Assembly (NCBI GenBank): GCA_014860455.1 | Contig: JACZJQ010000101.1 | Coordinates: forward strand, 1-51,807 | Direction: 5' to 3' | DNA: 51,807 nucleotides | Source: Bryobacteraceae bacterium | GTDB taxonomy: Bacteria; Acidobacteriota; Terriglobia; Bryobacterales; Bryobacteraceae | In this document: positions 2,197 through 41,917 of the stretch, one piece after another | Numbering within the stretch: the stretch's first letter is position 1 | Layout: each line of letters opens with the position of its first letter | The notes under the pieces: generated by a model | Seen by the model: only the letters and a program-made list of their open reading frames with translations | What the model was told of the DNA's origin: nothing | Database searches by the model: none | Position numbers and translations under genes: made by a program

Positions 2197-2397
2197 ATGA
2201 AGAAGATCAACACCATGCTTTTGAAACTGCGGATCATGAAGGACACCCGCGGTCAGGACCTCATCGAATACGCTTTGATGGCCGGCTTCGTGGCCGTCGC
2301 CGCCGGCGCCATCGTGCCGAGCGTCGCCAGCAGCATCAGCCAAATCTTCACGAAGGTGAACAGCGTCGTTGCGGGCGCGGCCGCTCAGGGCACCTAA
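2197..2397 (+). CDS. Flp/Fap-type (type IVb) prepilin
   Basis: This 66-residue protein is a small pilin subunit of the Flp family, which tad-type machines assemble into thin adhesive pili. A short basic leader ends in glycine 19. The sequence after it, QDLIEYALMAG, gives the family's processing motif, a Gly followed by four residues and then Glu24-Tyr25. One hydrophobic helix follows (about residues 22-50). Flp prepilins are normally 50-70 residues, so it looks complete. A GGAGAGGAGAT ribosome-binding site lies 8-10 bases before the ATG. No tad ATPase, secretin or prepilin peptidase gene is in the window, so the gene is an orphan here, as is common for highly expressed Flp genes. Two strong hairpins follow. 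Identification is secure; the assembly machine must be elsewhere. Confidence 0.9.
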   Translation: MKKINTMLLKLRIMKDTRGQDLIEYALMAGFVAVAAGAIVPSVASSISQIFTKVNSVVAGAAAQGT

Positions 2398-2427
2398 TCG
2401 CTGCTCTAGCGCAAACCTAGCCTTTCA

Positions 2428-2453
2428 GGGGGTGGTCCTTCGGGGCCACCCCC
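2428..2453 (+). terminator. UUCG-tetraloop hairpin after the pilin gene
   Basis: An 11-bp stem (2428-2438 with 2443-2453, one G-U pair) closes a TTCG loop on a C-G pair, the extra-stable C(UUCG)G configuration. No T-run follows directly. It is 30 bases past the pilin stop codon, so it could protect the pilin mRNA from 3' decay, or act with the next hairpin. Confidence 0.7.
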
Positions 2454-2473
2454 AATGCCCGAAAAAGGATCAG

Positions 2474-2496
2474 CCGGCCGAAAGGCCGGTTTTTTT
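2474..2496 (+). terminator. rho-independent terminator, probably bidirectional
   Basis: The stem CCGGCC (2474-2479) and GGCCGG (2484-2489) closes a GAAA loop and is followed by seven T (2490-2496). On the other strand a run of five T lies seven bases after the same stem. It should end the pilin transcript, and it may also end the leftward transcript of the gene at 2521. Confidence 0.85.
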
Positions 2497-2520
2497 GCGA
2501 AATGCCGTGCACGCAGGTGG

Positions 2521-3777
2521 TTAGAGCCACTCCACCAGATCCCCGCGCTCGTCGAAGCTGAGCCGCTTTGCTTTTCCCACGATCTGGACGCCCTGCCGGG
2601 TCTCCAGTTCCTCCCTCATATCCTCGCTGAAGGCCATCAACGACAGATCCTGTGTGTTCCGAATCCAACCCATCGACAGGCTTTCAGCCGTCAATTTCCC
2701 GGCCGTGACCCACGTCTTTTCAAGCGCCTCGCGGTCGGAGCGGAAGGCGGGTGGGGTCTTGATCGAGGCCAAGGCACCGGAGGTGATGCCGTTGACAAAC
2801 GTGGGCCCGCGTTTCATGGCCTTGAGCAGGTGCGAGTGGATGACATCGGCCATGCCGAAGCCGACAGCGTTGCCGTAGCTGTCTTTGTTCAATCCCCTCA
2901 AATAGATACGGCGGATGACGGGGGCGTCGGGCCAGGGGTTGTAGGCGCCGTGGATGGTGCGGTTGACAATCTTCGGGTCCATGCCGGAACCCGAAATCGC
3001 CTTGCCGATCTCGTTCAGGATGAGCCAGTCCAGCGCCCGCACCGGGATGGTGGGCTTCCAGGTCTTCACCAGGCGCAGCAGTTCCTCTTCGCGCACCTCC
3101 ATGCGCTGGATCGGGATGGCTTCCAGATGCGCCGTCGAATGGTTGCCATCCTCCATGATGGCCAGCCCGCCGAGGATCTTGCCCGAGGCCAGGACATGCC
3201 GGCCGACGGTGCGGATGACGTTTTCGAGCCCACGGGAGTGGGCGTGGGCATGATAGGTTTGAGCGCCGGCGAACTTACCCAGGCCAATGGCCATCATCTT
3301 GAATAATCCGCTTTCGAGGTTCCCGGCAAAGTCGGTGTGCCATTTGACGCGGCCGCAGAGCATGACGCCCGCGGAGGCGTAGGCCGTGGCATCCATCAAG
3401 ACCGGGATGCCGTCCGCCGCACCCAGTTCGACCACCTTCAATGAACTACGGATGGGGCAGCCGACGCCCTCCTCGGTGATGCCGTACTTTTCCAGCACTT
3501 CGGCCTGGCCCCTGGCCGTGGCCGCGCCATGACTGCCCATGGCGGGGAAGATGAACGGGCGCATCCCCTTCGACTTCCACCATTTAACTGCGGCGCGGAC
3601 GATCCGTTGATTGTTGGCGATGCCACGGCTGCCAACGCCGATGGCGACTTCGGATCCTCTTGCGAGGCTGCGCTGCATGCCTGAGGCGTCCAGCGTCTGG
3701 CGGACGGCGGCTTCGATGTTGCGGATGCGGAGGTCAGCGAAGCGCTGGCGGACGATCAGGAACCGCGGAAATACCAT
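2521..3777 (-). CDS. LarA-like (lactate racemase domain) protein
   Basis: This 418-residue protein resembles the LarA/DUF2088 family, whose founding member is a nickel-pincer lactate racemase. Many relatives have unknown substrates. Visible marks are GVGSRG (residues 48-52), used in nucleotide-like cofactor binding, and AMGSHG (79-84), carrying the conserved histidine, followed by a typical KYGITEEGVGCPI segment. The start at 3777 (MVFPRF) is preferred over an upstream ATG at 3822, which would overlap the neighbouring gene. No larB, larC or larE cofactor-synthesis gene is nearby, so racemase activity cannot be assumed. It follows the unknown gene at 3807 in the same direction by 29 bases and probably shares its transcript. 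Family confidence is fair; the reaction is unknown. Confidence 0.7.
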   Translation of the reverse strand: MVFPRFLIVRQRFADLRIRNIEAAVRQTLDASGMQRSLARGSEVAIGVGSRGIANNQRIVRAAVKWWKSKGMRPFIFPAMGSHGAATARGQAEVLEKYGITEEGVGCPIRSSLKVVELGAADGIPVLMDATAYASAGVMLCGRVKWHTDFAGNLESGLFKMMAIGLGKFAGAQTYHAHAHSRGLENVIRTVGRHVLASGKILGGLAIMEDGNHSTAHLEAIPIQRMEVREEELLRLVKTWKPTIPVRALDWLILNEIGKAISGSGMDPKIVNRTIHGAYNPWPDAPVIRRIYLRGLNKDSYGNAVGFGMADVIHSHLLKAMKRGPTFVNGITSGALASIKTPPAFRSDREALEKTWVTAGKLTAESLSMGWIRNTQDLSLMAFSEDMREELETRQGVQIVGKAKRLSFDERGDLVEWL

Positions 3778-3806
3778 GTCCGCGATTTTATCAGGATGGG
3801 CTGAGG

Positions 3807-4424
3807 CTAGATCTCTTCCCACTCGCGCTCAAGGATGCGCGAGTACTCGCCCGAGGCGTAAAGGTCAAAGTGGAACTGCTCCGGCGGCAGCGAGGAAAAC
3901 GGCTCGTTGTGCTGGCGGCAGGCGAACAGGTGGTCGGAAAAGCGGTAGTAGTAGCGGATGAAGTGCGGGGTCAGTTGCTCTTGCGTGGGCGCTTCATCGA
4001 ACACCGCCTTTACGCCAAGCGCCCGGCTGAAGATGGACTTGTAATCGGCCACACCCCATCGCGTCAGCTTCTCCCGGACTTCCTGTGTCGGATTGTTGAT
4101 CAACAGCTCAATGAAGCTGCCCGCCGCGACGCCTGCGTTGCGAAGCTCCTCGTCCCGGTCGCCGAGTTCAACACACTGTTCAATCCAGCGTTCCAGGTCC
4201 TTGCCGACGAAATAGAGCATCCGGATCTCGCAGAAGCGTCCGGAGAGGAACCGCCTCTGCAGTTCCTCCGCGCTCAACTCGCCGCTGGGCAGAAGACCCT
4301 GCATCATCAACTGGGCGCGGCTACTTTCAACGAGCCGCTCGGGACCTGTCGGGTCGGCGAAGGGGTGGAGGATCACCGGTGGGAGATCCCATTTGCGTCC
4401 GGCTGGCAGTGAGGCAAATTGCAT
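3807..4424 (-). CDS. conserved hypothetical protein
   Basis: I do not recognise this 205-residue soluble protein. It has no signal peptide or membrane segment. It is rich in charged and aromatic residues, with HFIRYYYRFSDHLF near the C-terminus and a mostly helical look. Codon use matches its neighbours, and the frame is clean from ATG to stop, so it is probably real. It lies directly upstream of the LarA-like gene (29-base gap), which suggests co-transcription. The 94 bases before it hold the terminator of the M28 peptidase gene and therefore also its own promoter. Confidence 0.7.
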   Translation of the reverse strand: MQFASLPAGRKWDLPPVILHPFADPTGPERLVESSRAQLMMQGLLPSGELSAEELQRRFLSGRFCEIRMLYFVGKDLERWIEQCVELGDRDEELRNAGVAAGSFIELLINNPTQEVREKLTRWGVADYKSIFSRALGVKAVFDEAPTQEQLTPHFIRYYYRFSDHLFACRQHNEPFSSLPPEQFHFDLYASGEYSRILEREWEEI

Positions 4425-4488
4425 GTTGGCTGAGGACTCTTCCGTCTTCCATTTTATCGGCAGGAAGTGCTGGAACCATAAACAAAAT

Positions 4489-4511
4489 AGCCCGCCTTCG
4501 TACTAAGGCGG
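4489..4511 (-). terminator. terminator of the M28 peptidase gene
   Basis: On the minus strand, 7 bases after the TAG stop at 4519, a 7-bp stem CCGCCTT/AAGGCGG closes a six-base loop. It is followed by GGCTATTTTGTTTAT. The stem plus T-rich tail is a good rho-independent terminator. Confidence 0.75.
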
Positions 4512-4518
4512 ATGGCGG

Positions 4519-6327
4519 CTATTTCCGGACCGTCAGTACTGTCTTGCCTTCCATCTGCTTGCCGTCTCGCTTCCACTTCACCAGAACCTCGTCGCCGGGC
4601 TTGTGGGCGCGCAGCGCGTAGGTGAACTCGGTGAGGTTGCTCACCGGCTTGCCGCCAAACTCATAAATGACGTCGCCGCCCTTCAATCCGGCCTGCGCGG
4701 CGGGCGAGCCTTCACGGACGTCGGAGAGGCGGAAGCCGCCCGGAACGTCGCTCATATCCGGCACCGAGCCGAAATAGACGCCGCCGCCCATGCGTGCCGA
4801 GGCCGTGGCCATGGCCTGGGGCCGCGGATCGGCCGTGCGGACAAACTGCGGGCGCTCACCGGCATCGGCGAGTTTCACGCTGATATCGGCGACCATGTTC
4901 AGCAGTGTGGCCGCCGAAACGTGGTCGATCTTGTCCCAGGTGTCCGACGGACGGTGGTAGTCGCCATGCAATCCGCTGAAGAAAAACAGCACCGGGATCT
5001 GCTTTGCGGTAAACGAAGTATGGTCAGACGAGCCGTAGCCGCCCTGCTCGGAGAGGTCGACGTTGAGCGTGTACTTGCCTTTGACATCGTCGAGGATGGA
5101 TTTAAGGCTCGACCCCGTGCCGGAGCCGCCGACAAAAACCTTGTTGTCCTTGATACGTCCGATCATGTCCATGTTGATCATGGCCACGGCCTTCTCATTG
5201 GGCAGCAGGGCATTGTTTGCGTAGTAGGCCGAGCCGAGCAGCCCGAGTTCCTCTCCCGCGAAGGCCAGGAACAGGATGCCGCGTTTCAGCTTGCGGCCCG
5301 AGAAGTGGCGCGCCAGTTCGATCACCCCGGCCGTGCCCGAGGCATTGTCGTCCGCGCCGTAGTGGATCTCCTTGCCCGCCAGCGACGGTGCCATCGACGA
5401 ATACTCGCCCATGCCGAGGTGGTCGTAATGGGCGCCGATGACGACGTATTCGTCGGTCTCGCCCTTGAGGTAGGCGCAGACGTTGGGCACTTCCTTCTGT
5501 TCGCGCTCGACGTCGGTGCTGAGCGCCATGCGCACCGCACCCGGCAGTGCGACCGGCTTGGGCTTGAGTTCTTTATCGGTTTCCGCGACCCAGGCCTTCA
5601 GGTCGATGCCCGCTGTGGCGAGCAACTTCTGCGCCTGCTCGACGCGGATCTGGACAAACGGAATCGCCGTGAAGCCCGGCCCGACCACTCGCGCGAAGCG
5701 GTCCAGTTCATCGGGGTCGACCGGGTGGTTCATCAGGTCGTTCACATACAAAACCGCCTTGGCACCGTGGAACTTGGCGTTGACGGCTTTCGAGTCCATC
5801 TGGGCGTGACGCGTATACGCCTTGCCGGCGAAGACGCTCTTCTCGTCGAACTCCTGTGGTTCATGACGCAGCAGGATGACGATCTTGTCCTTCACATCGA
5901 TACCCGCGTAGTCGTCGTAGTTATACTCCGGCGCCGTGATCCCGTAGCCGGCAAAGACCACCTGACCATCGTTGGTCCCGTTGCCCGAAAAGTTGAACGG
6001 AATGAAGTCGGTCAGCGGCGTCAGCGCATACTTCGCCGTCCCATCGGTCCAGCTCAGGCTGTTCTTCGAGCCCGGCTTGGCGTTGGTGGTCACCGTGAAG
6101 CGCTGGAAATACGAGTTGCCAGCCACCGGGGCGATGCCCGCCTTTTCAAACTCGCCGGCGATGTAGCGGGCCGCCTTCTCCAACTCAGGCGTGCCTGTGC
6201 CGCGGCCTTTCATGTCGGCCGAAGACAGGTGTTTCACCGTCTCGCGGTAGCGCAGAGCGTCGATGTCGGCGCCGAAATTGAGGGTGGCGAGCAGGAGGGC
6301 GGCGGCGAACGGGCGAATCAGCATCAT
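4519..6327 (-). CDS. secreted M28-family zinc aminopeptidase with PA and PDZ regions
   Basis: This 602-residue exported peptidase probably removes N-terminal residues from peptides outside the cytoplasm. It starts MMLIRPF with a signal peptide of about 20 residues. A PA-like insert, typical of this family, fills roughly residues 120-230. The M28 zinc site follows: GAHYDH (His300), ADDNASG, AGEELG (catalytic Glu), NMDMIGR and DYHRPSD, all five ligand motifs intact. The last 100 or so residues form a PDZ-like domain (GFRLSDVREGSPAAQAGLKGGDVIYEF). An AAGGAAG ribosome-binding site precedes the start. It lies 18 bases after the DsbA-like gene on the same strand and ends in a clear terminator. Identification is firm; substrates are unknown. 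Confidence 0.93.
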   Translation of the reverse strand: MMLIRPFAAALLLATLNFGADIDALRYRETVKHLSSADMKGRGTGTPELEKAARYIAGEFEKAGIAPVAGNSYFQRFTVTTNAKPGSKNSLSWTDGTAKYALTPLTDFIPFNFSGNGTNDGQVVFAGYGITAPEYNYDDYAGIDVKDKIVILLRHEPQEFDEKSVFAGKAYTRHAQMDSKAVNAKFHGAKAVLYVNDLMNHPVDPDELDRFARVVGPGFTAIPFVQIRVEQAQKLLATAGIDLKAWVAETDKELKPKPVALPGAVRMALSTDVEREQKEVPNVCAYLKGETDEYVVIGAHYDHLGMGEYSSMAPSLAGKEIHYGADDNASGTAGVIELARHFSGRKLKRGILFLAFAGEELGLLGSAYYANNALLPNEKAVAMINMDMIGRIKDNKVFVGGSGTGSSLKSILDDVKGKYTLNVDLSEQGGYGSSDHTSFTAKQIPVLFFFSGLHGDYHRPSDTWDKIDHVSAATLLNMVADISVKLADAGERPQFVRTADPRPQAMATASARMGGGVYFGSVPDMSDVPGGFRLSDVREGSPAAQAGLKGGDVIYEFGGKPVSNLTEFTYALRAHKPGDEVLVKWKRDGKQMEGKTVLTVRK

Positions 6328-8461: not shown

Positions 8462-9805
8462 TTAGTAACCGGTGGACGCTTCGCCCTTGGTTCCGGGGCC
8501 GTGATCCAGTTCGCGCCAGATCATGAACAGCCCGAGCATGAACAACATCGAGTACATGCCCATGAAACCCAGCAATGTGAAAGTGGCGCTGCCGGACGAC
8601 ACATGCGGACTCGTGCCAGCCGCCGTCCGCAGCAGTCCGTAGATCAGCCACGGCTGCCGGCCGAGTTCGGTCGTCATCCAGCCGGCCGTGTTGGCGACGT
8701 AGGGCAGCGGCAGAAACATCATCAGGGCCCAGAGCAGTGGCTTTGCCTCGAACAGTTTGCCCCGCCACAGCCACACCGCCGACGATGCCATCACGGCAAT
8801 GAACAGCGTCCCCAGGCCAACCATGATGTGGAATGCGAAATACAGCAGCGGGATCTGGTCCGGCCAGGTGTCCTCGGGGAATTCATTCAGGCCCCTGATT
8901 TCCGCCGTCCATCTGTTCTGCGCGACAAAGCTCAAAACGCCCGGAATGATGAATGGGTTGTCCAGCCGCTTTTTGTCCATATCAGGCTGCCCGAGGATAG
9001 CCAGCGGCGCGCCTTTTGACGTTTCAAACAGAGCCTCCATCGCCGCCAACGTCACCGGTTGGTGCTTCGCCACCAGTTTGGCCTGCATGTCGCCGGTGGG
9101 GAAGGCCACCAACAAGGTCGCCAGAGCCCCGGCCGGCACGCCCAGCCTCAGAAATCTCTTGCCCGCCTCGGGGTGGTGTTTTGTCAGGATGTAATACGCC
9201 CCCACGCCGCACACCACGAAACAGCCCGTGACAATGCCGCCGGTGATCGTATGCACATACTGCCAGAACGCCCATTCGTTAAACACCAGAGACCACCAAC
9301 TGTTCAGCAGAATCTCGCCCTTCGGACCCAGGTGATATCCCGTCGGATGCTGCATCCACGCATTTGTCGCTACGATCAGGTAGCCCGACATCCAGCTCCC
9401 GATCCACACCGCCGCCGTGGCGATCGTATGGCCTATCTGGCCCAGACGCTTCTCGCCAAACAACATCAGGCCCAGGAACGACGACTCGAGGAAGAACGTG
9501 TACAGCCCCTCCATGCCGAGCGTGTGGCCAATCACGCCGCCCGCCCCCTTCGAGAATCTCGACCAGTTCGTGCCGAACTGAAACTCCATTGGGATGCCCG
9601 TGACCACGCCCAGGGCAAAGTTGATGGCGAAGATCTTCGACCAGAAACGCGCGGCCTCATTCCACCGCTCGTCGCCTGTCTTGAGCGCCAGAATCTTCAT
9701 CAGGAAGATGAGAAACCCCAGGCCCAGTGTTAACTGGACGAAAATGTAGTGGAATGTGATCGTGAAGGCAAAGTGGAAACGGTGTAAGGCTAGTGCTGAT
9801 TCCAT
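8462..9805 (-). CDS. cydA: cytochrome bd ubiquinol oxidase subunit I
   Basis: This 447-residue subunit carries the haems of bd oxidase. Haem-ligand positions are visible: His19 in TFHYIF, the VHTITGG histidine near residue 185, and the methionine in LLYFAFHIMVGLG. MEFQFGTNWS, GWMTTELGRQPW and the EWAFWQYVHT region are also family marks. At 447 residues it lacks the long insertion of the E. coli Q-loop, so it belongs to the short Q-loop (CioA-like/S) type. It is the first gene of the cydAB operon. The 59-base gap to the MFS gene must hold the promoter, unless it is transcribed from further upstream. Confidence 0.95.
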   Translation of the reverse strand: MESALALHRFHFAFTITFHYIFVQLTLGLGFLIFLMKILALKTGDERWNEAARFWSKIFAINFALGVVTGIPMEFQFGTNWSRFSKGAGGVIGHTLGMEGLYTFFLESSFLGLMLFGEKRLGQIGHTIATAAVWIGSWMSGYLIVATNAWMQHPTGYHLGPKGEILLNSWWSLVFNEWAFWQYVHTITGGIVTGCFVVCGVGAYYILTKHHPEAGKRFLRLGVPAGALATLLVAFPTGDMQAKLVAKHQPVTLAAMEALFETSKGAPLAILGQPDMDKKRLDNPFIIPGVLSFVAQNRWTAEIRGLNEFPEDTWPDQIPLLYFAFHIMVGLGTLFIAVMASSAVWLWRGKLFEAKPLLWALMMFLPLPYVANTAGWMTTELGRQPWLIYGLLRTAAGTSPHVSSGSATFTLLGFMGMYSMLFMLGLFMIWRELDHGPGTKGEASTGY

Positions 9806-36576: not shown

Positions 36577-36708
36577 CGGCGAAGCGATGGGGATGAAGCC
36601 GGGCGCAGGGACGGAGTGTGCGGATTGATAATGTTGATTTGCGTTTTCCGAATTTACTTTCAAGTTCCCTGAGAAGTTGCCGATCTCACCAGCACTGATT
36701 AGATGCGA

Positions 36709-36784
36709 GGGCCGGAAAGCTCCGCAGGACGCGCGATGGCCGCTCGGCCGGGCGGATTATTCCGGGCCTACCCGCACAGGCGGG
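36709..36784 (+). promoter_or_regulatory. structured 5' leader of the collagen-like gene
   Basis: Three stems can form. An outer stem pairs 36710-36717 (GGCCGGAA) with 36760-36768, with a bulged G. An inner hairpin GGCC-GCTC-GGCC lies at 36738-36749. A CCCGC-ACAG-GCGGG hairpin is at 36771-36784, ending 30 bases before the ATG. This could be a cis-regulatory RNA or a simple stabilising leader. I see no match to a known riboswitch core. Confidence 0.35.
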
Positions 36785-36814
36785 CCGCGAGTATCGGCAA
36801 AGGAAAAGCAGGAA

Positions 36815-38038
36815 ATGAAACTTCTCCATTGGCTCCCCATGATTGCGCTGACCTTGGGGTCTGGCGCGGCTGGGGCGGCCGACTTGAAAGTAGTAGCGTC
36901 GCCGCACACCTTCCAGGTGAGCAGGACGCAGGACATCGTACTGAGCATCGCCAACACCACGCCCGGATCTGGCGGGGGCGTCGCATTGATGAACGGCGAC
37001 ACGATCGAGTTGTATCTCGATCTGCGCGGAGGCAGCCTCGCCGAGGCTCCGGTTGCGACATTGCTGCAGGGAGAGCGATTCGAGGGGCAGAACTTTACGG
37101 TCGAGCCGGTTTCGGGCGAGAACCGGATCCGGATCACTTACGCTGGAGCCGGGACACAGTGGAGTTCGGCCGAGAGCATTCAGCTGAGTTTGAAAATAAC
37201 CACGCCGAGCACGCCGGGGGTAGCTTTGGTTGTGATGAAGCTGCCGACCCTGGACGGACGGTTCGGGGCGGCGGAATGGAACGTCTTCCCGATCAACGTG
37301 TTGACGGCCGATCAGACGCCGGCGGCCGGGCCGCAGGGGCCTGAGGGTCCGCAGGGGCCGGCGGGTCCGCAAGGCGAAGTTGGACCGCTGGGTCCTGTTG
37401 GCGGGCGTGGACCGATGGGCGACAGCGGGCCTCGCGGTCCGCAGGGCGAACCAGGTTCGGCGGGCGCGACTGGCGCCAATGGCGCGACGGGCGCACAGGG
37501 TCCGGCTGGACCGGCTGGCGAGACTGGCGCGACGGGGCCGGCAGGTCCGCAAGGTGAGACAGGAGCCGCGGGTGCCACAGGCGCTACCGGCGCAGCGGGT
37601 CCGCAAGGCGACGTTGGTCCGGCTGGCGCTGCCGGCGCACAGGGCGCGCAGGGCGAAGTTGGTCCGGCCGGCCCTGCCGGCGCACAGGGTGCGCAGGGCG
37701 AAGTTGGTCCGGCTGGAGCGCAGGGACCGGCGGGTCCGCAGGGAGCGGCGGGAGCCACGGGTGCGGCCGGCGCCAACGGCGTGAGCGGGTGGACTCGCAC
37801 ATCGAGTTCGACCGCGACCGACCCTGGAGCGAGTGCTGTAACGAACCACTCGGTGAGTTGCGGGGCGAAGAAGGTGGTTGGCGGCGGCTGCCGGATCACC
37901 GTCGATTTGGAGGGCGGCATCATCGTCGGCAGTTACCCTGGGTCTGACAACACTTGGGACTGTGTCTTTGTGAATTGGACTGGCGGCGCCACGCTGGAGG
38001 CCCACGCCATCTGCGCAGACATAGCGATACCAGACTAG
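36815..38038 (+). CDS. secreted collagen-like protein
   Basis: This 407-residue protein starts at 36815, after AAGGAAAAGCAGGAA. A signal peptide ([20 protein letters not shown]) covers residues 1-22. A beta-rich N-terminal domain (about 23-165) follows; it resembles cohesin-like or carbohydrate-binding folds, but I cannot name it. From residue 172 about 51 uninterrupted Gly-X-Y triplets follow, rich in GPQ, GAQ, GPA, GAT and GEV. The last 80 or so residues form a C-terminal domain with three cysteines ([25 protein letters not shown]). Collagen-like triplets form trimeric triple helices, so a surface or matrix role is likely. The GC-rich repeats include repeated DNA units, so copy number may vary between strains. 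Confidence 0.88.
37634..37716 (+). repeat. direct repeats within the collagen-like region
   Basis: A unit reading GCGCAGGGCGAAGTTGGTCC recurs about 45 bases apart, around 37646 and 37691, within blocks coding [15 protein letters not shown] and [14 protein letters not shown]. Short in-frame repeats of this kind favour triplet-number variation. Confidence 0.6.
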
Positions 38039-38232
38039 TCGACCTCAGTTGGAGCGGTCTGATAATGGGCGTGCCGCTCTGTCGTCAGGAGTGGTGCGCC
38101 CGGTTCATTCTCAGAACTCTGGCAATGCGGAGATGCTGGACGCCGTGCCAAGGGCCGCCCACAGCGCAATCGTGCAGCGCATGCTTGCCAGTGATGCCGC
38201 CCTAAATGTGATGGGAGGTTGGTTGATGGATG

Positions 38233-38583
38233 GTGGAGGCGGCGGGAGTTGAACCCGCGTCCGAAATGGCCCGCCGTGACAAGACTACGTGCGTATCCGG
38301 TCCGGAATTTCGGCTGCGGACCTCGAACCGGCAAACGGTCACGCAACCCAGCCTGATTGATCTCGGGCCTTTCGCCCCAGACGGAGGCTTGGACCCTATC
38401 CTGCAAAAATGACGCTCGATCGATGACGCGCAGGCTCGTCACCGGCGAGCGGCTACCTATTTAATTAGGCAGCGTATGCAAACTGCTGATTGGCAGTTGT
38501 GTTTTTCCGATCGTTTAACGGGAGCTCGGAACCCGGCACGCCTCATCACTTCGGCTCCATCCCGTCGAAGCCGTTACGCCCCC
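38233..38583 (-). ncRNA. ssrA: tmRNA
   Basis: Transfer-messenger RNA of 351 bases on the minus strand. Its 5' end GGGGGCGTAACGGCTTCGACGGG and its 3' end GCGGGTTCAACTCCCGCCGCCTCCACCA are the conserved tRNA-like halves. They pair in a 7-bp acceptor stem with the G3-U70 pair read by alanyl-tRNA synthetase. CCA is encoded. The tag reading frame ends AATTTGCATACGCTGCC then TAA; from the likely resume codon GCC it gives ANQQFAYAA (38494-38465), a typical proteolysis tag ending. It rescues stalled ribosomes together with SmpB. A TATAAT at 38600-38605 (minus strand) is a plausible -10, although it lies 16 bases from the mature 5' end. Confidence 0.95.
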
Positions 38584-38599
38584 TCCTTTCAACACTTCC

Positions 38600-38605
38600 A
38601 TTATA
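38600..38605 (-). promoter_or_regulatory. -10 box of the tmRNA promoter
   Basis: Perfect TATAAT on the minus strand. It would place the start of transcription about 8 bases upstream of the mature tmRNA 5' end, consistent with processing. The -35 region is poor. Some tmRNA could also come from readthrough of the peroxiredoxin transcript. Confidence 0.5.
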
Positions 38606-38651
38606 GGCGACGCGGAGCCGGCCGTTTCCGTTCCATTCGAGGGCAGGGCGG

Positions 38652-39104
38652 TCAGACACGGCCGGGCCATTGGGTGATTGCGTCCAGGATCTCCTCCACT
38701 GGCGGGCTGCCGCGTTTGGAGAAAGCGATCCGGCCATCGGGTGACACAACATAGACGGTTCGTCTGACAACTGCGGCCCAGCCGGACTGGTAGGCGCGGG
38801 CGATGCGGCTTCCGGCATCGACAATGAGCGGAAAGCTGAGTTTCAGCTTCTCCGCATAGCGCTTATGGCTCGCATCGCTTGCCGGGTTGACGCCATACAC
38901 GATGGCGCCGGCTTCCTGAAGCCGCCCGTATGCGGCATTCAATCCGCCGAGTTGGGCAGTTCAACCAGGCGTGTCGTCGGCGGGGTAGAAGACCAGGACG
39001 GCGAAGCGGCCGGCGATGGACTCCAGCGAGACGGTGGCGCCGTGCTGGTCCTTGCCGTGGAAGGCCGGGGCAGGCTCGCCAACCCGGATGGGTGCGCCAA
39101 GCAT
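38652..39104 (-). CDS. Bcp/AhpC-type peroxiredoxin with an in-frame TGA at the peroxidatic position: candidate selenoprotein
   Basis: From ATG 39104 the frame reads MLGAPIRVGEPAPAFHGKDQ and onward to FYPADDTPG, then TGA at 38963-38961 (codon 48), then TAQLGGLNAAYG to a stop at 38652. The total is 150 residues, counting the TGA as one. TPG-C-T is the peroxidatic cysteine motif of Bcp/AhpC proteins, so the TGA replaces exactly the catalytic cysteine. The expected downstream arginine is present (Arg115 in VVRRTVYVV). The frame is clean on both sides, and no other cysteine occurs, so a resolving partner would be external. Selenocysteine peroxiredoxins are known in bacteria, and a SECIS-like hairpin follows. 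Alternatives are a TGC sequencing error or a nonsense mutation. ATG lies 4 bases after the argR stop. Confidence 0.75.
38922..38959 (-). promoter_or_regulatory. SECIS-like hairpin just after the TGA
   Basis: Starting 1 base after the TGA, a 6-bp outer stem CUGCCC/GGGCGG encloses an internal loop (AACU/CAUAC) and a 4-bp inner stem CGGC/GCCG. The apical loop is 9 bases, GGAUUGAAU. Bacterial SECIS elements lie directly downstream of the UGA and have a guanosine at the start of the apical loop at about 16-37 bases from the codon; here the loop begins at base 16. Energy was not computed. Confidence 0.5.
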
Positions 39105-39108
39105 GACG

Positions 39109-39543
39109 TTAGTTTTGCACAAACGTGAGCAGGCGCTCGTGGACCGTCTTGGCGCGCTGGTCGTCCCAGCAGGCGATCAGGACGGTATCGTCACCGGCAA
39201 TGGTACCGGCGATCTCGGCCCAATCCTCCTGATCCAGCGCGACGGCGAGTGAACTCGCGCTGCCGATCGAGGTTTTCAGGATGACGAGATTCTGGGCGAG
39301 CCGGACGTCGAGCAGGTATTCACCCATCACCGTGGCCAGGTCGGGCCCGGTGGGATCGGGCAGGATCTCGACATAGCCTTCGCTGGTTTTTGCCAGGCCC
39401 ATTTCGCGCAGGTCGCGCGAGAGCGTCACTTGCGTGGCTTCAATGCCCTGGGCGCGGAGTTCCCGGGCGAGTTCATCCTGCGTCTGGATGCGCTTGGAGC
39501 GGATGAGCTTGAGGATCTGTCCTTGGCGGTAGTTCTTTGTCAT
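39109..39543 (-). CDS. argR: arginine repressor
   Basis: This 144-residue regulator has a winged-helix DNA-binding half, RQGQILKLIRSKRIQTQDELARELRAQGIEATQVTLSRDLREMGL. The C-terminal hexamerisation and arginine-binding half includes SIGSASSLAVALDQEDWAEIAGTIAGDDTVLIAC, where GDDT is the arginine-contact motif. In the presence of arginine, ArgR binds ARG boxes and represses biosynthesis. The gene is third in argF-argH-argR; its ATG overlaps argH's stop by 4 bases, and its TAA is 4 bases before the peroxiredoxin ATG. Autoregulation through the ARG box near 41930 is likely. Confidence 0.95.
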   Translation of the reverse strand: MTKNYRQGQILKLIRSKRIQTQDELARELRAQGIEATQVTLSRDLREMGLAKTSEGYVEILPDPTGPDLATVMGEYLLDVRLAQNLVILKTSIGSASSLAVALDQEDWAEIAGTIAGDDTVLIACWDDQRAKTVHERLLTFVQN

Positions 39544-40940
39544 GAGAGTTTCTCCAAACGGGTGCGGGCTTCGGTGAGCGCCGCAGCGACGGTATCCGGG
39601 GCGGTACCGCCGGGGGCGCGGCGGGTCTTCATGCCTTCGGCGGGGTCCATGAGGGCGGCCATTTCGGGATTGAAGCGCGGGTCGAAGGCGACCAGCGCTT
39701 CGGGGGTCCAGCCGGAAGGCGGGATTTCGTTTTGCACGGATTCGAGGACGAGCTTTCCGGCGAGTTGGTGGGCCTGATGGAACGGCACGCCGGAGCGGGC
39801 GAGGGCTTCGGCGAGGTCGGTGGCCACCACCCAGGATTCGGCGGCGGCACGGCGCGGGCGGTCCGGCTTGAGCGAAGTGGTTTCGAGGACTTCGCGGACC
39901 ATTTCAAGGGACTGGGCGAGCGTGGAGGCGGCGTCGAAAAGCGGCTCCTTGTCCTCCTGCATGTCGCGATTGTAGGTCATCGGCAGGCCCTTCATGAGGA
40001 CCAGCAGCGAGGTGAGTGCGCCGACGACGCGGCCGGATTTGCCGCGGACCAGTTCCATCGAGTCCGGGTTCTTCTTTTGCGGCATCAGCGAACTGCCGCT
40101 GGTGACGCCGTCGCCGAGTTCGAGCCAGTCGTACTCTTCCGAGCTGTAAAGGATCCAGTCCTCGGCCAGCCGGGAGAGATGGATCATGGCGATGGAGGCG
40201 GCCGAGAGGAAGTCGAGCACGAAGTCGCGATCGGCGGAGACATCCATCGAGTTGCGGGTGATGGATTCGAATCCGAGTTCGGCCGCCAGGGCGTCGCGGT
40301 CCACAGGGAAGCCGGAGCCGGCCAGCGCGCCAGAGCCGAGCGGCATCACGTTGACCCGCGCGCGGGTCTGGGTCAACCGCTCATGGTCCCGCATAAACAT
40401 CTCGAAATAGGCCAGCAGGTAGTGCGGCCACAGCACGGCCTGGGCACGGCGGACATGGGTATAGCCGGGGATGATGGCGTCGGGGTAGCGGGCGGCGAGG
40501 CCGAGCAGCGCGGCCAGCACGCCGCGCAGCAGCGCGAGCGTCTCGTCGATCTCCGAGCGCAGCCATAGCCGGGTGTCGAGAGACACCTGTTCGTTGCGGC
40601 TGCGGCCGGTGTGGATCTTGTCGGCCAGCGCCCCGGCCTTGTCCTTAAGGCAGCGGATGACGTAGGTGTGGACATCCTCATCGGAGGCCGCTGCGGCGGC
40701 TTCACGGTCGATTGAATCCAGGGCGGCGCAGATCTGGTCCGCCTCGGCAGGGGCAAGGATGCCGGCGCCGGCTAGCGCCCGGGCATAGGCCTTCGAGCCG
40801 AGAATGTCGGCATCGATGAGGCGGCGGTCGAAATGGAGCGATCCGGAGAAGCGTTCGAAGACGGGCGAGGGGCCGGACTTGAAGCGTCCGCCCCAAAGCT
40901 TCATGCCGGGTTTGGATTCGTTGGTGGGTTGATCGGCCAT
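39540..40940 (-). CDS. argH: argininosuccinate lyase
   Basis: A 466-residue enzyme of the fumarase/aspartase superfamily, catalysing the last step of arginine synthesis: argininosuccinate to arginine and fumarate. Marks are WGGRFKSGPSP at the start, SLDTRLWLRSEID, the signature GSSLMPQKKNPDSMELVRGKSGR and VMPLGSGALAGSGFPVDR. It lies 8 bases downstream of argF on the same strand and overlaps argR by 4 bases. The synthetase gene argG is not in the window. Confidence 0.96.
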   Translation of the reverse strand: MADQPTNESKPGMKLWGGRFKSGPSPVFERFSGSLHFDRRLIDADILGSKAYARALAGAGILAPAEADQICAALDSIDREAAAAASDEDVHTYVIRCLKDKAGALADKIHTGRSRNEQVSLDTRLWLRSEIDETLALLRGVLAALLGLAARYPDAIIPGYTHVRRAQAVLWPHYLLAYFEMFMRDHERLTQTRARVNVMPLGSGALAGSGFPVDRDALAAELGFESITRNSMDVSADRDFVLDFLSAASIAMIHLSRLAEDWILYSSEEYDWLELGDGVTSGSSLMPQKKNPDSMELVRGKSGRVVGALTSLLVLMKGLPMTYNRDMQEDKEPLFDAASTLAQSLEMVREVLETTSLKPDRPRRAAAESWVVATDLAEALARSGVPFHQAHQLAGKLVLESVQNEIPPSGWTPEALVAFDPRFNPEMAALMDPAEGMKTRRAPGGTAPDTVAAALTEARTRLEKLS

Positions 40941-40948
40941 CGTGTGGG

Positions 40949-41917
40949 CTAGTCCTTCTTGTCGCCGCAGGCAAGCATGAGCATGAGCGACTTCTGGGCG
41001 TGGAGGCGGTTTTCGGCCTGGTCGAAGATGACGGAAACGGGCGATTCCATCACCTCGTCCGTGGTTTCCTCCTCGCGGTGGGCGGGCAGGCAGTGCATGA
41101 AGAGGGCGCCGGGAGCGGCCATGCTCATGAGAGCGGCGTTCACCTGATAAGAGGCGAACAGCCGGGCGCGTTCGGCGGCTTCATGTTCCTGGCCCATGGA
41201 TGCCCAAACGTCAGTGTAAACGGCATTGGCGCCGGCCAGGCCGACTTCGAGCGAATCGGTTGAGCGGATGGCGGCCCCGGTGGCGGCGGCGAAGCGTCGG
41301 GCAGCGGCGAGGATTTCCATCGACGGTTCGTAGCCGGGCGGCGTGATGCAGGTAAAGTTGACGCCAAGGCGGGCACAGTCGAGCATAAGCGAGTGGGCGA
41401 CGTTGTTGCCGTCGCCGACAAAGGCCAAGGTGCGGCCGTCGAAGCCGCCCCAGTGCTCGCGGAGGGTGAGCATGTCGGCCAGCGCCTGACAGGGGTGGTA
41501 CAAGTCGCTGAGGGCATTGATGACGGGGGAGGAGGACCAGGCCGCGAGTTCGTCCACGGTGGTTTGAGAGAAGGTGCGGGCGACGATCATGGAGGTCCAG
41601 CGTTCGAGGTTGCGGGCGACGTCCTTGACCGGTTCGCGGCCGCCAATGGGCCCGGTGTAGAGGATGGAATCGCCGCCGAGCTGCTTGGCGGCGACTTCAA
41701 AGGTGATGCGGGTGCGTAGCGAAGGCTTCTCGAAGAGCAGGCTGACCACCATGCCGTCCAGAGCGCGGCTGTAGCTCTTCGGGCTTGATTTGATGCCGGC
41801 GGCGAGGTCGAGGCAGGCGTGGAGTTCGGATTCGGTGAGGTCGAAGTCGGACCGTGCATCGCCGGAGAGAACCGGGCTCGGAGCGATAGGGACAGGCGAC
41901 GGGGGGTGGGTGGACAT
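40949..41917 (-). CDS. argF: ornithine carbamoyltransferase
   Basis: This 322-residue enzyme joins carbamoyl phosphate to ornithine to give citrulline. The phosphate-binding motif is FEKPSLRTRITFEVAAKQLGG, with SLRTR where many relatives have STRTR. A carbamoyl and ornithine region, SDLYHPCQALADMLT, and the catalytic HCLPAHREEE follow. The N-terminus carries about 15 extra proline/serine-rich residues before the conserved fold, so a later start is possible. It is the first gene of the arginine operon. An ARG-box-like palindrome lies 13-26 bases upstream of its start codon. Confidence 0.94.
   Translation of the reverse strand: MSTHPPSPVPIAPSPVLSGDARSDFDLTESELHACLDLAAGIKSSPKSYSRALDGMVVSLLFEKPSLRTRITFEVAAKQLGGDSILYTGPIGGREPVKDVARNLERWTSMIVARTFSQTTVDELAAWSSSPVINALSDLYHPCQALADMLTLREHWGGFDGRTLAFVGDGNNVAHSLMLDCARLGVNFTCITPPGYEPSMEILAAARRFAAATGAAIRSTDSLEVGLAGANAVYTDVWASMGQEHEAAERARLFASYQVNAALMSMAAPGALFMHCLPAHREEETTDEVMESPVSVIFDQAENRLHAQKSLMLMLACGDKKD

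Follow-up and report, generated by a model that had tools for sequence, protein, structure and literature searches.

Is the TGA codon inside a small peroxiredoxin gene of a Bryobacteraceae bacterium a lesion, or is it read as selenocysteine (Sec)? The gene lies in the window, the whole 51,807-nt stretch of DNA analysed here, which is contig C198 of a metagenome-type assembly of 5.29 Mb in 356 contigs (95% complete, 0.09% contamination). Translation of positions 38652-39104 on the minus strand gives MLGAPIRV...FYPADDTPG*TAQLGG...RV*, with one internal stop, and the gene has the following features:

38652..39104, minus strand: candidate Sec-peroxiredoxin gene, PrxQ/Bcp-like, of 150 residues plus a TGA stop, with Sec as residue 48 and no Cys
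38961..38963, minus strand: internal TGA at the peroxidatic position (TPG-U-T), taken as a selenocysteine codon from the TGA/Cys alternation in homologues
38946..38948, minus strand: GGC (Gly53) at the +5 position, which holds the resolving Cys in Cys homologues (alignment)
38760..38765, minus strand: Arg114-Arg115, the conserved catalytic-arginine region (alignment; the role of the Arg is that known from peroxiredoxin chemistry)

The original prediction of a selenoprotein placed the TGA in a TPG-x-T motif, and direct reading of the codon agrees: U48 follows T45-P46-G47 within FYPADDTPG-U-T, at the peroxidatic Cys site of PrxQ/Bcp proteins. The Pfam AhpC-TSA domain (PF00578) spans the stop (residues 7-127, E = 7.7e-33, 113.5 bits against a cut-off of 26), so peroxiredoxin sequence does continue in one frame on both sides, as had been claimed. 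Translation also confirmed that the protein has no cysteine, and the catalytic arginine is kept, with R115 nearly invariant and T116 invariant in a 45-row alignment. Among open reading frames of at least 80 aa, the same frame is represented only by 38652-38942, a 96-aa frame with a TTG start, which is the truncated fragment that had been foreseen; ordinary ORF calling thus cuts off the active-site half of a real enzyme. An AlphaFold2 model, made from the 45-row alignment with the UGA modelled as Cys, reached a pLDDT of 94.8 and placed residue 48 near the start of a helix (46-57). Its best PDB matches in Foldseek were Bcp1 (3drn) and a Burkholderia protein (5enu), followed by PrxQ and the 1-Cys AhpE. 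While the protein scored below the NCBIfam PrxQ/Bcp cut-offs (NF053650, 71.8 of 260 bits; NF006960, 60.5 of 140 bits), these nearest models and the Bcp structures point to an enzyme of the PrxQ/Bcp type, probably of COG1225.

We searched for homologues in 201 genomes (its own and 200 relatives) using a match threshold of E 1e-30 or better. A match was found in 71 genomes, its own included, and none in 130; same-genus genome G001 (84% complete) had no homologue at E 1e-30. At the aligned codon, nine of the 71 homologues had TGA and 62 had TGC or TGT, with no other codon seen. This places TGA at the active-site codon beyond chance, as first argued, and the proposed alignment check, whether Cys replaces Sec in homologues, came out positive. 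In a second set, the best 80 of 522 relatives from named genomes, which overlaps the first, TGA was found in nine and Cys in 71; most of these 80 were from Acidobacteriota, with many MAGs of Bryobacteraceae, Bryobacterales or Solibacter, and the nearest was Candidatus Solibacter sp. PR.3.38 (81%). Counting identical proteins once reduced 151 rows to 109 distinct proteins, 13 with Sec (the window's included) and 96 with Cys, and the same TGA is present in 12 other distinct genes from other assemblies. The G003 peroxiredoxin is 81% identical and also has TGA. Compared with G003, the closest relative, dN/dS was about 0.20 for the part preceding the UGA and 0.18 for the part following it, and both halves remained below 1 compared with three more distant relatives: purifying selection acts on either side of the UGA. 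Immediately before the TGA, the Gly codon (38964-38966, minus strand) is GGT in 11 of the 13 Sec genes, rows that are related to one another; the 36 Cys homologues with Gly there mostly use GGC, and only 2 of them have GGT.

The genes to look for, according to the original prediction, were selA, selB, selC and selD. The genome contains selA (489 bits, cut-off 268), selB (365 bits, cut-off 242) and a tRNA-Sec (73 bits, gathering threshold 47) with anticodon UCA according to ARAGORN, but selD was not found in the assembly: the best model score was 46 bits compared to a cut-off of 125, and a relative's SelD protein used as query against the assembly gave nothing better than the model match. In same-genus G003, selD is located at C33:25581-26486. 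The surroundings of that gene match our genome until C244 runs out (base 9321 of 9321), and the match resumes with the opening base of C302; the part of the G003 query without a match (2212-4754), between C244 and C302, contains selD. Because the place of selD in the relative coincides exactly with an assembly gap, the gap is the likely explanation for its absence. The gene was found in all three same-genus relatives searched and in 171 of the 201 genomes overall. Across the same 201 genomes, selA was present in 170 (match at 1e-60), including all nine TGA genomes; it had no match at 1e-60 in 9 of the 62 Cys genomes, and every homologue-bearing genome lacking selA carries the Cys form. Since selA occurs in most of these genomes, its association with TGA among homologue-bearing genomes is not significant when taken alone (Fisher p = 0.59). 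One TGA genome, G006, has selA and no selD match at 1e-25. With Sec machinery present and Cys at the same codon in homologues, the candidate selenoprotein reading is supported.

Downstream of the UGA, constrained folding and comparison between groups point to a further candidate feature:

38916..38942, minus strand: SECIS-like hairpin, its apical loop spanning nt 30-35 past the UGA (38926-38931)

The fold was constrained to an apex at nt 31-33 after the UGA, which was picked after the sequences had been viewed. At the nt-31 apex, mean folding energy was -11.3 kcal/mol for the 13 Sec genes compared to -5.4 kcal/mol for the 96 Cys genes (MWU p = 5e-6), and the mean fraction of synonymous recodings that folded equally well was 0.15 for Sec genes compared to 0.46 for Cys genes (p = 1e-4). 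At nt 31, 12 of 13 Sec genes form a hairpin better than -3 kcal/mol, L091 being the exception. As 69 of 96 Cys genes form one too, what separates the groups is hairpin strength. Because the apex was chosen with the sequences in view, we scanned 16 codon-aligned apex positions. Position 31 was by far the strongest (p = 1e-5), followed by 58 (p = 0.008) and 13 (p = 0.019), and none of 5,000 label shuffles reached the observed extreme, although shuffling ignores relatedness and the rows are not independent. The window's own 49 nt folded at -19.9 kcal/mol (z = -2.8), with 2 of 200 dinucleotide shuffles as good, and for this gene alone 15% of synonymous recodings folded equally well. Generic folding of the 42 nt after the UGA differed weakly between Sec and Cys genes (p = 0.043). 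A bSECIS-like model that required G in the first two positions of a loop starting 15-38 nt after the UGA gave no Sec/Cys difference (p = 0.19), and an Rfam search of the peroxiredoxin gene returned no SECIS and nothing credible.

We hold with high confidence that the gene encodes a Sec-containing PrxQ/Bcp-type peroxiredoxin, with a UGA that SelB would decode through a putative hairpin signal, and thus a predicted 1-Sec enzyme whose selenium incorporation and activity we infer. Very probably, the in-frame UGA makes selenocysteine the active-site residue of a small antioxidant enzyme. In the mechanism we propose, SelA would make Sec-tRNA(UCA), SelB, guided by the hairpin just after the UGA, would deliver Sec at codon 48, and the second TGA would end the chain. 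The selenol would then attack H2O2 or an organic hydroperoxide, aided by Thr45 and Arg115, whose roles are established peroxiredoxin chemistry, and the resulting selenenic acid would be reduced by an outside thiol, which could be a low-molecular-weight thiol, thioredoxin or another redoxin. Because the protein has no other Sec or Cys, no internal Se-S bond could form and an outside thiol would be needed, which from its residues alone suggests a 1-Sec enzyme.

Directly upstream of the peroxiredoxin gene and on the same strand are three arginine genes, with argR 4 nt from its start:

39109..39543, minus strand: argR, arginine repressor (TIGR01529, 124.2 bits, just under the cut-off of 130.45; synteny)
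39540..40940, minus strand: argH, argininosuccinate lyase (TIGR00838, 525 bits, above cut-off)
40949..41917, minus strand: argF, ornithine carbamoyltransferase (TIGR00658, 340 bits, above cut-off)

The 4-nt spacing and the conserved order make co-expression of the peroxiredoxin with argF-argH-argR probable. Among the best 80 of 522 named loci, argR was on the flank in nine, namely eight of the 9 Sec loci and, out of 71 Cys loci, L124 alone, and these counts are lower bounds because some flanks end at contig ends. The distance to argR is about 1.7 kb at L116 and 0.7 kb at L118 (both Sec loci); argR is adjacent in the others, and in the seven adjacent loci the spacing, which depends on the start codons chosen, is -1 to 14 nt. 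Among 29 relatives' loci (L027-L055), argR lies beside L027, L028, L029 and L032, all Sec, and also beside two Cys forms, L031 (which has Ser at +5) and L033 (Cys/Cys), the latter taken to be on one genome contig with L124. Altogether, argR is near 10 of the 13 distinct Sec genes and near only two Cys forms seen; at the Sec loci L044, L045 and L091 there is no argR as far as the flanks reach. The pattern suggests that the argR-linked genes are orthologues, with Cys/Cys, Sec/Cys, Sec/Ser and Sec/Gly forms among them. Scanning positions 38200-39300 for promoters gave no candidate, and for terminators two candidate sites compared to 0.9 expected; we conclude nothing from either result. A tmRNA (38231-38583, minus strand; tag ANQQFAYAA) lies 68 nt downstream of the peroxiredoxin gene. 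Beyond it is a 453-aa ORF (36677-38038, plus strand) with collagen-like adhesin matches below cut-off; the opposite strand is also open for 439 aa, and either frame may be the true gene.

Could the TGA instead mark a gene that has been lost? A nonsense mutation at the active-site codon, leaving the downstream half as a remnant, would be in keeping with an ORF list that yields only a fragment in frame and with an assembly that lacks selD. However, the same TGA recurs in the 12 other distinct genes, the genome has Sec machinery, and the downstream half evolves at a dN/dS of about 0.18 relative to G003; because this indicates purifying selection after the UGA, a pseudogene is disfavoured and we give it a very slight chance. 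A sequencing or assembly error in a TGC or TGT codon might be suspected in a single metagenome-type assembly of 356 contigs, but TGA is found at this codon in independent assemblies of other species, among them the 81%-identical protein of G003. Recurrence in 12 other distinct genes makes such an error very unlikely, to the point of being negligible. Genome-wide reassignment of TGA (for example, to Trp), or its reading by a suppressor, would equally leave the frame open through the codon. Against this, argH ends in TGA and so does the peroxiredoxin gene, in which TGA would thus carry two meanings; tRNA-Trp(CCA) and tRNA-Sec(UCA) were both among the eight tRNA loci scanned; and the codon alternates with Cys codons only. 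We regard reassignment, too, as having next to no chance.

A different alternative accepts that Sec is inserted but holds that the protein acts mainly in redox sensing or as a thiol-disulphide enzyme, with a link to arginine metabolism. The lack of a resolving Cys and the conserved place after argR would fit such a role, but the protein keeps the TxxU motif, the catalytic Arg and the Bcp/AhpE fold, and we consider this unlikely, if less so than the alternatives that deny Sec altogether. The preferred reading remains a Sec-dependent peroxidase.

In the Cys homologues, a second Cys lies five residues beyond the peroxidatic one (TPGCTKQLC) and is kept in 93 of the 96 distinct Cys proteins, while the same position in the 13 Sec proteins is Cys in five, Gly in seven and Ser in one. 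The resolving Cys has therefore been lost in 8 of 13 Sec forms compared to 3 of 96 Cys forms (Fisher p = 5e-7, with relatedness ignored), indicating that Sec goes hand in hand with loss of the resolving Cys and that both states of the Sec form survive. A tree of 109 rows and 148 columns, with both trait residues masked, was poorly resolved. The best tree needs at least seven changes, but an AU test on the 109 rows does not reject one clade holding all Sec forms (p = 0.335), so the tree cannot say how often the Sec/resolving-Cys change happened. Tentatively, and with the odds somewhat against it, we suggest that a 2-Cys PrxQ gained Sec first and then lost the resolving Cys, giving a Cys-free 1-Sec peroxidase that was kept in argF-argH-argR-prx and would tie a selenium-dependent peroxide or redox response to arginine control. 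The argR-linked Cys/Cys, Sec/Cys and Sec/Gly forms are a natural series in which to ask whether a resolving cysteine becomes dispensable once Sec is present. The argR-linked Cys form with Ser at the resolving-Cys place (L031, from G101) is possibly a Sec-to-Cys reversion or a separate loss.

Sec-peroxiredoxins with a TxxU motif (COG1225) have been in print since at least 2005: a Sargasso Sea selenoproteome includes 43 peroxiredoxin selenoproteins of COG1225 with TXXU (PMC1088965), another survey reports 12 Prx selenoproteins, five Cys-to-Sec events, and Acidobacteria with four selenoproteins of three families (PMC1794560), and Peroxiredoxin is defined as COG1225 (Bcp) with TxxU in PMC9312934, with PMC13188914 a further source for the selenoprotein family Peroxiredoxin (Prx), COG1225 (Bcp), TxxU. 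Such proteins are already known in other bacteria, and the window gene adds a member. It shares with them the AhpC/TSA domain, Sec at the peroxidatic position, the TxxU motif and widespread Cys homologues; it differs in occurring in Bryobacteraceae after argF-argH-argR and perhaps also in encoding a Cys-free protein. The less ordinary features are the Cys-free form and the place at the end of an arginine-making cluster. A search of the open-access literature, in which arginine was not a search term, found no paper naming the gene or an argR-linked Sec peroxiredoxin.

The window protein also has Sec in a peroxiredoxin in common with PrxU (NF040737), which we take to be the model for the Sec-peroxiredoxin of Eubacterium acidaminophilum, but it scores only 40.3 bits with that model (cut-off 270), in contrast to 399 bits for L004, a separate TGA gene of the same genome. 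The 2-Cys PrxQ/Bcp proteins (3drn, 5iiz and others) are its best Foldseek and sequence matches and share the fold and the TPG-[U/C]-T site, whereas the window protein has Sec in place of Cys and Gly in place of the resolving Cys at +5. The 1-Cys AhpE proteins (1xvw, 4xih) likewise have a single catalytic chalcogen and a similar structure (TM-score (query) 0.86-0.89); however, they have Cys rather than Sec, are 23-25% identical and are not the nearest subfamily by sequence.

At least three further TGA thiol proteins are present in the same genome, in which case several thiol peroxidases of a soil acidobacterial group use Sec. L003 (C324:1864-2262), another TGA peroxiredoxin, is AhpC/AhpE-like and has the motif FTGG-U-T and an N-terminus resembling a signal; a TGA homologue with the same motif was found in all six relatives searched, and its downstream hairpin is no better than those of synonymous recodings. 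L004 (C245:4349-4789), for which the PrxU score was given above, has TGA at an FTFV-U position, followed by a hairpin whose GGTC loop begins 18 nt past the TGA. The thioredoxin-like L006 (C314:36227-36529; DW-U-PWC) falls below the cut-off of every NCBIfam model listed and has a hairpin whose GGTCG loop begins 21 nt past the TGA. Alongside the Sec form, the genome has L002 (C281:25180-25581; TPGCTTEACSFRE), a Bcp/PrxQ paralogue of the ordinary Cys kind.
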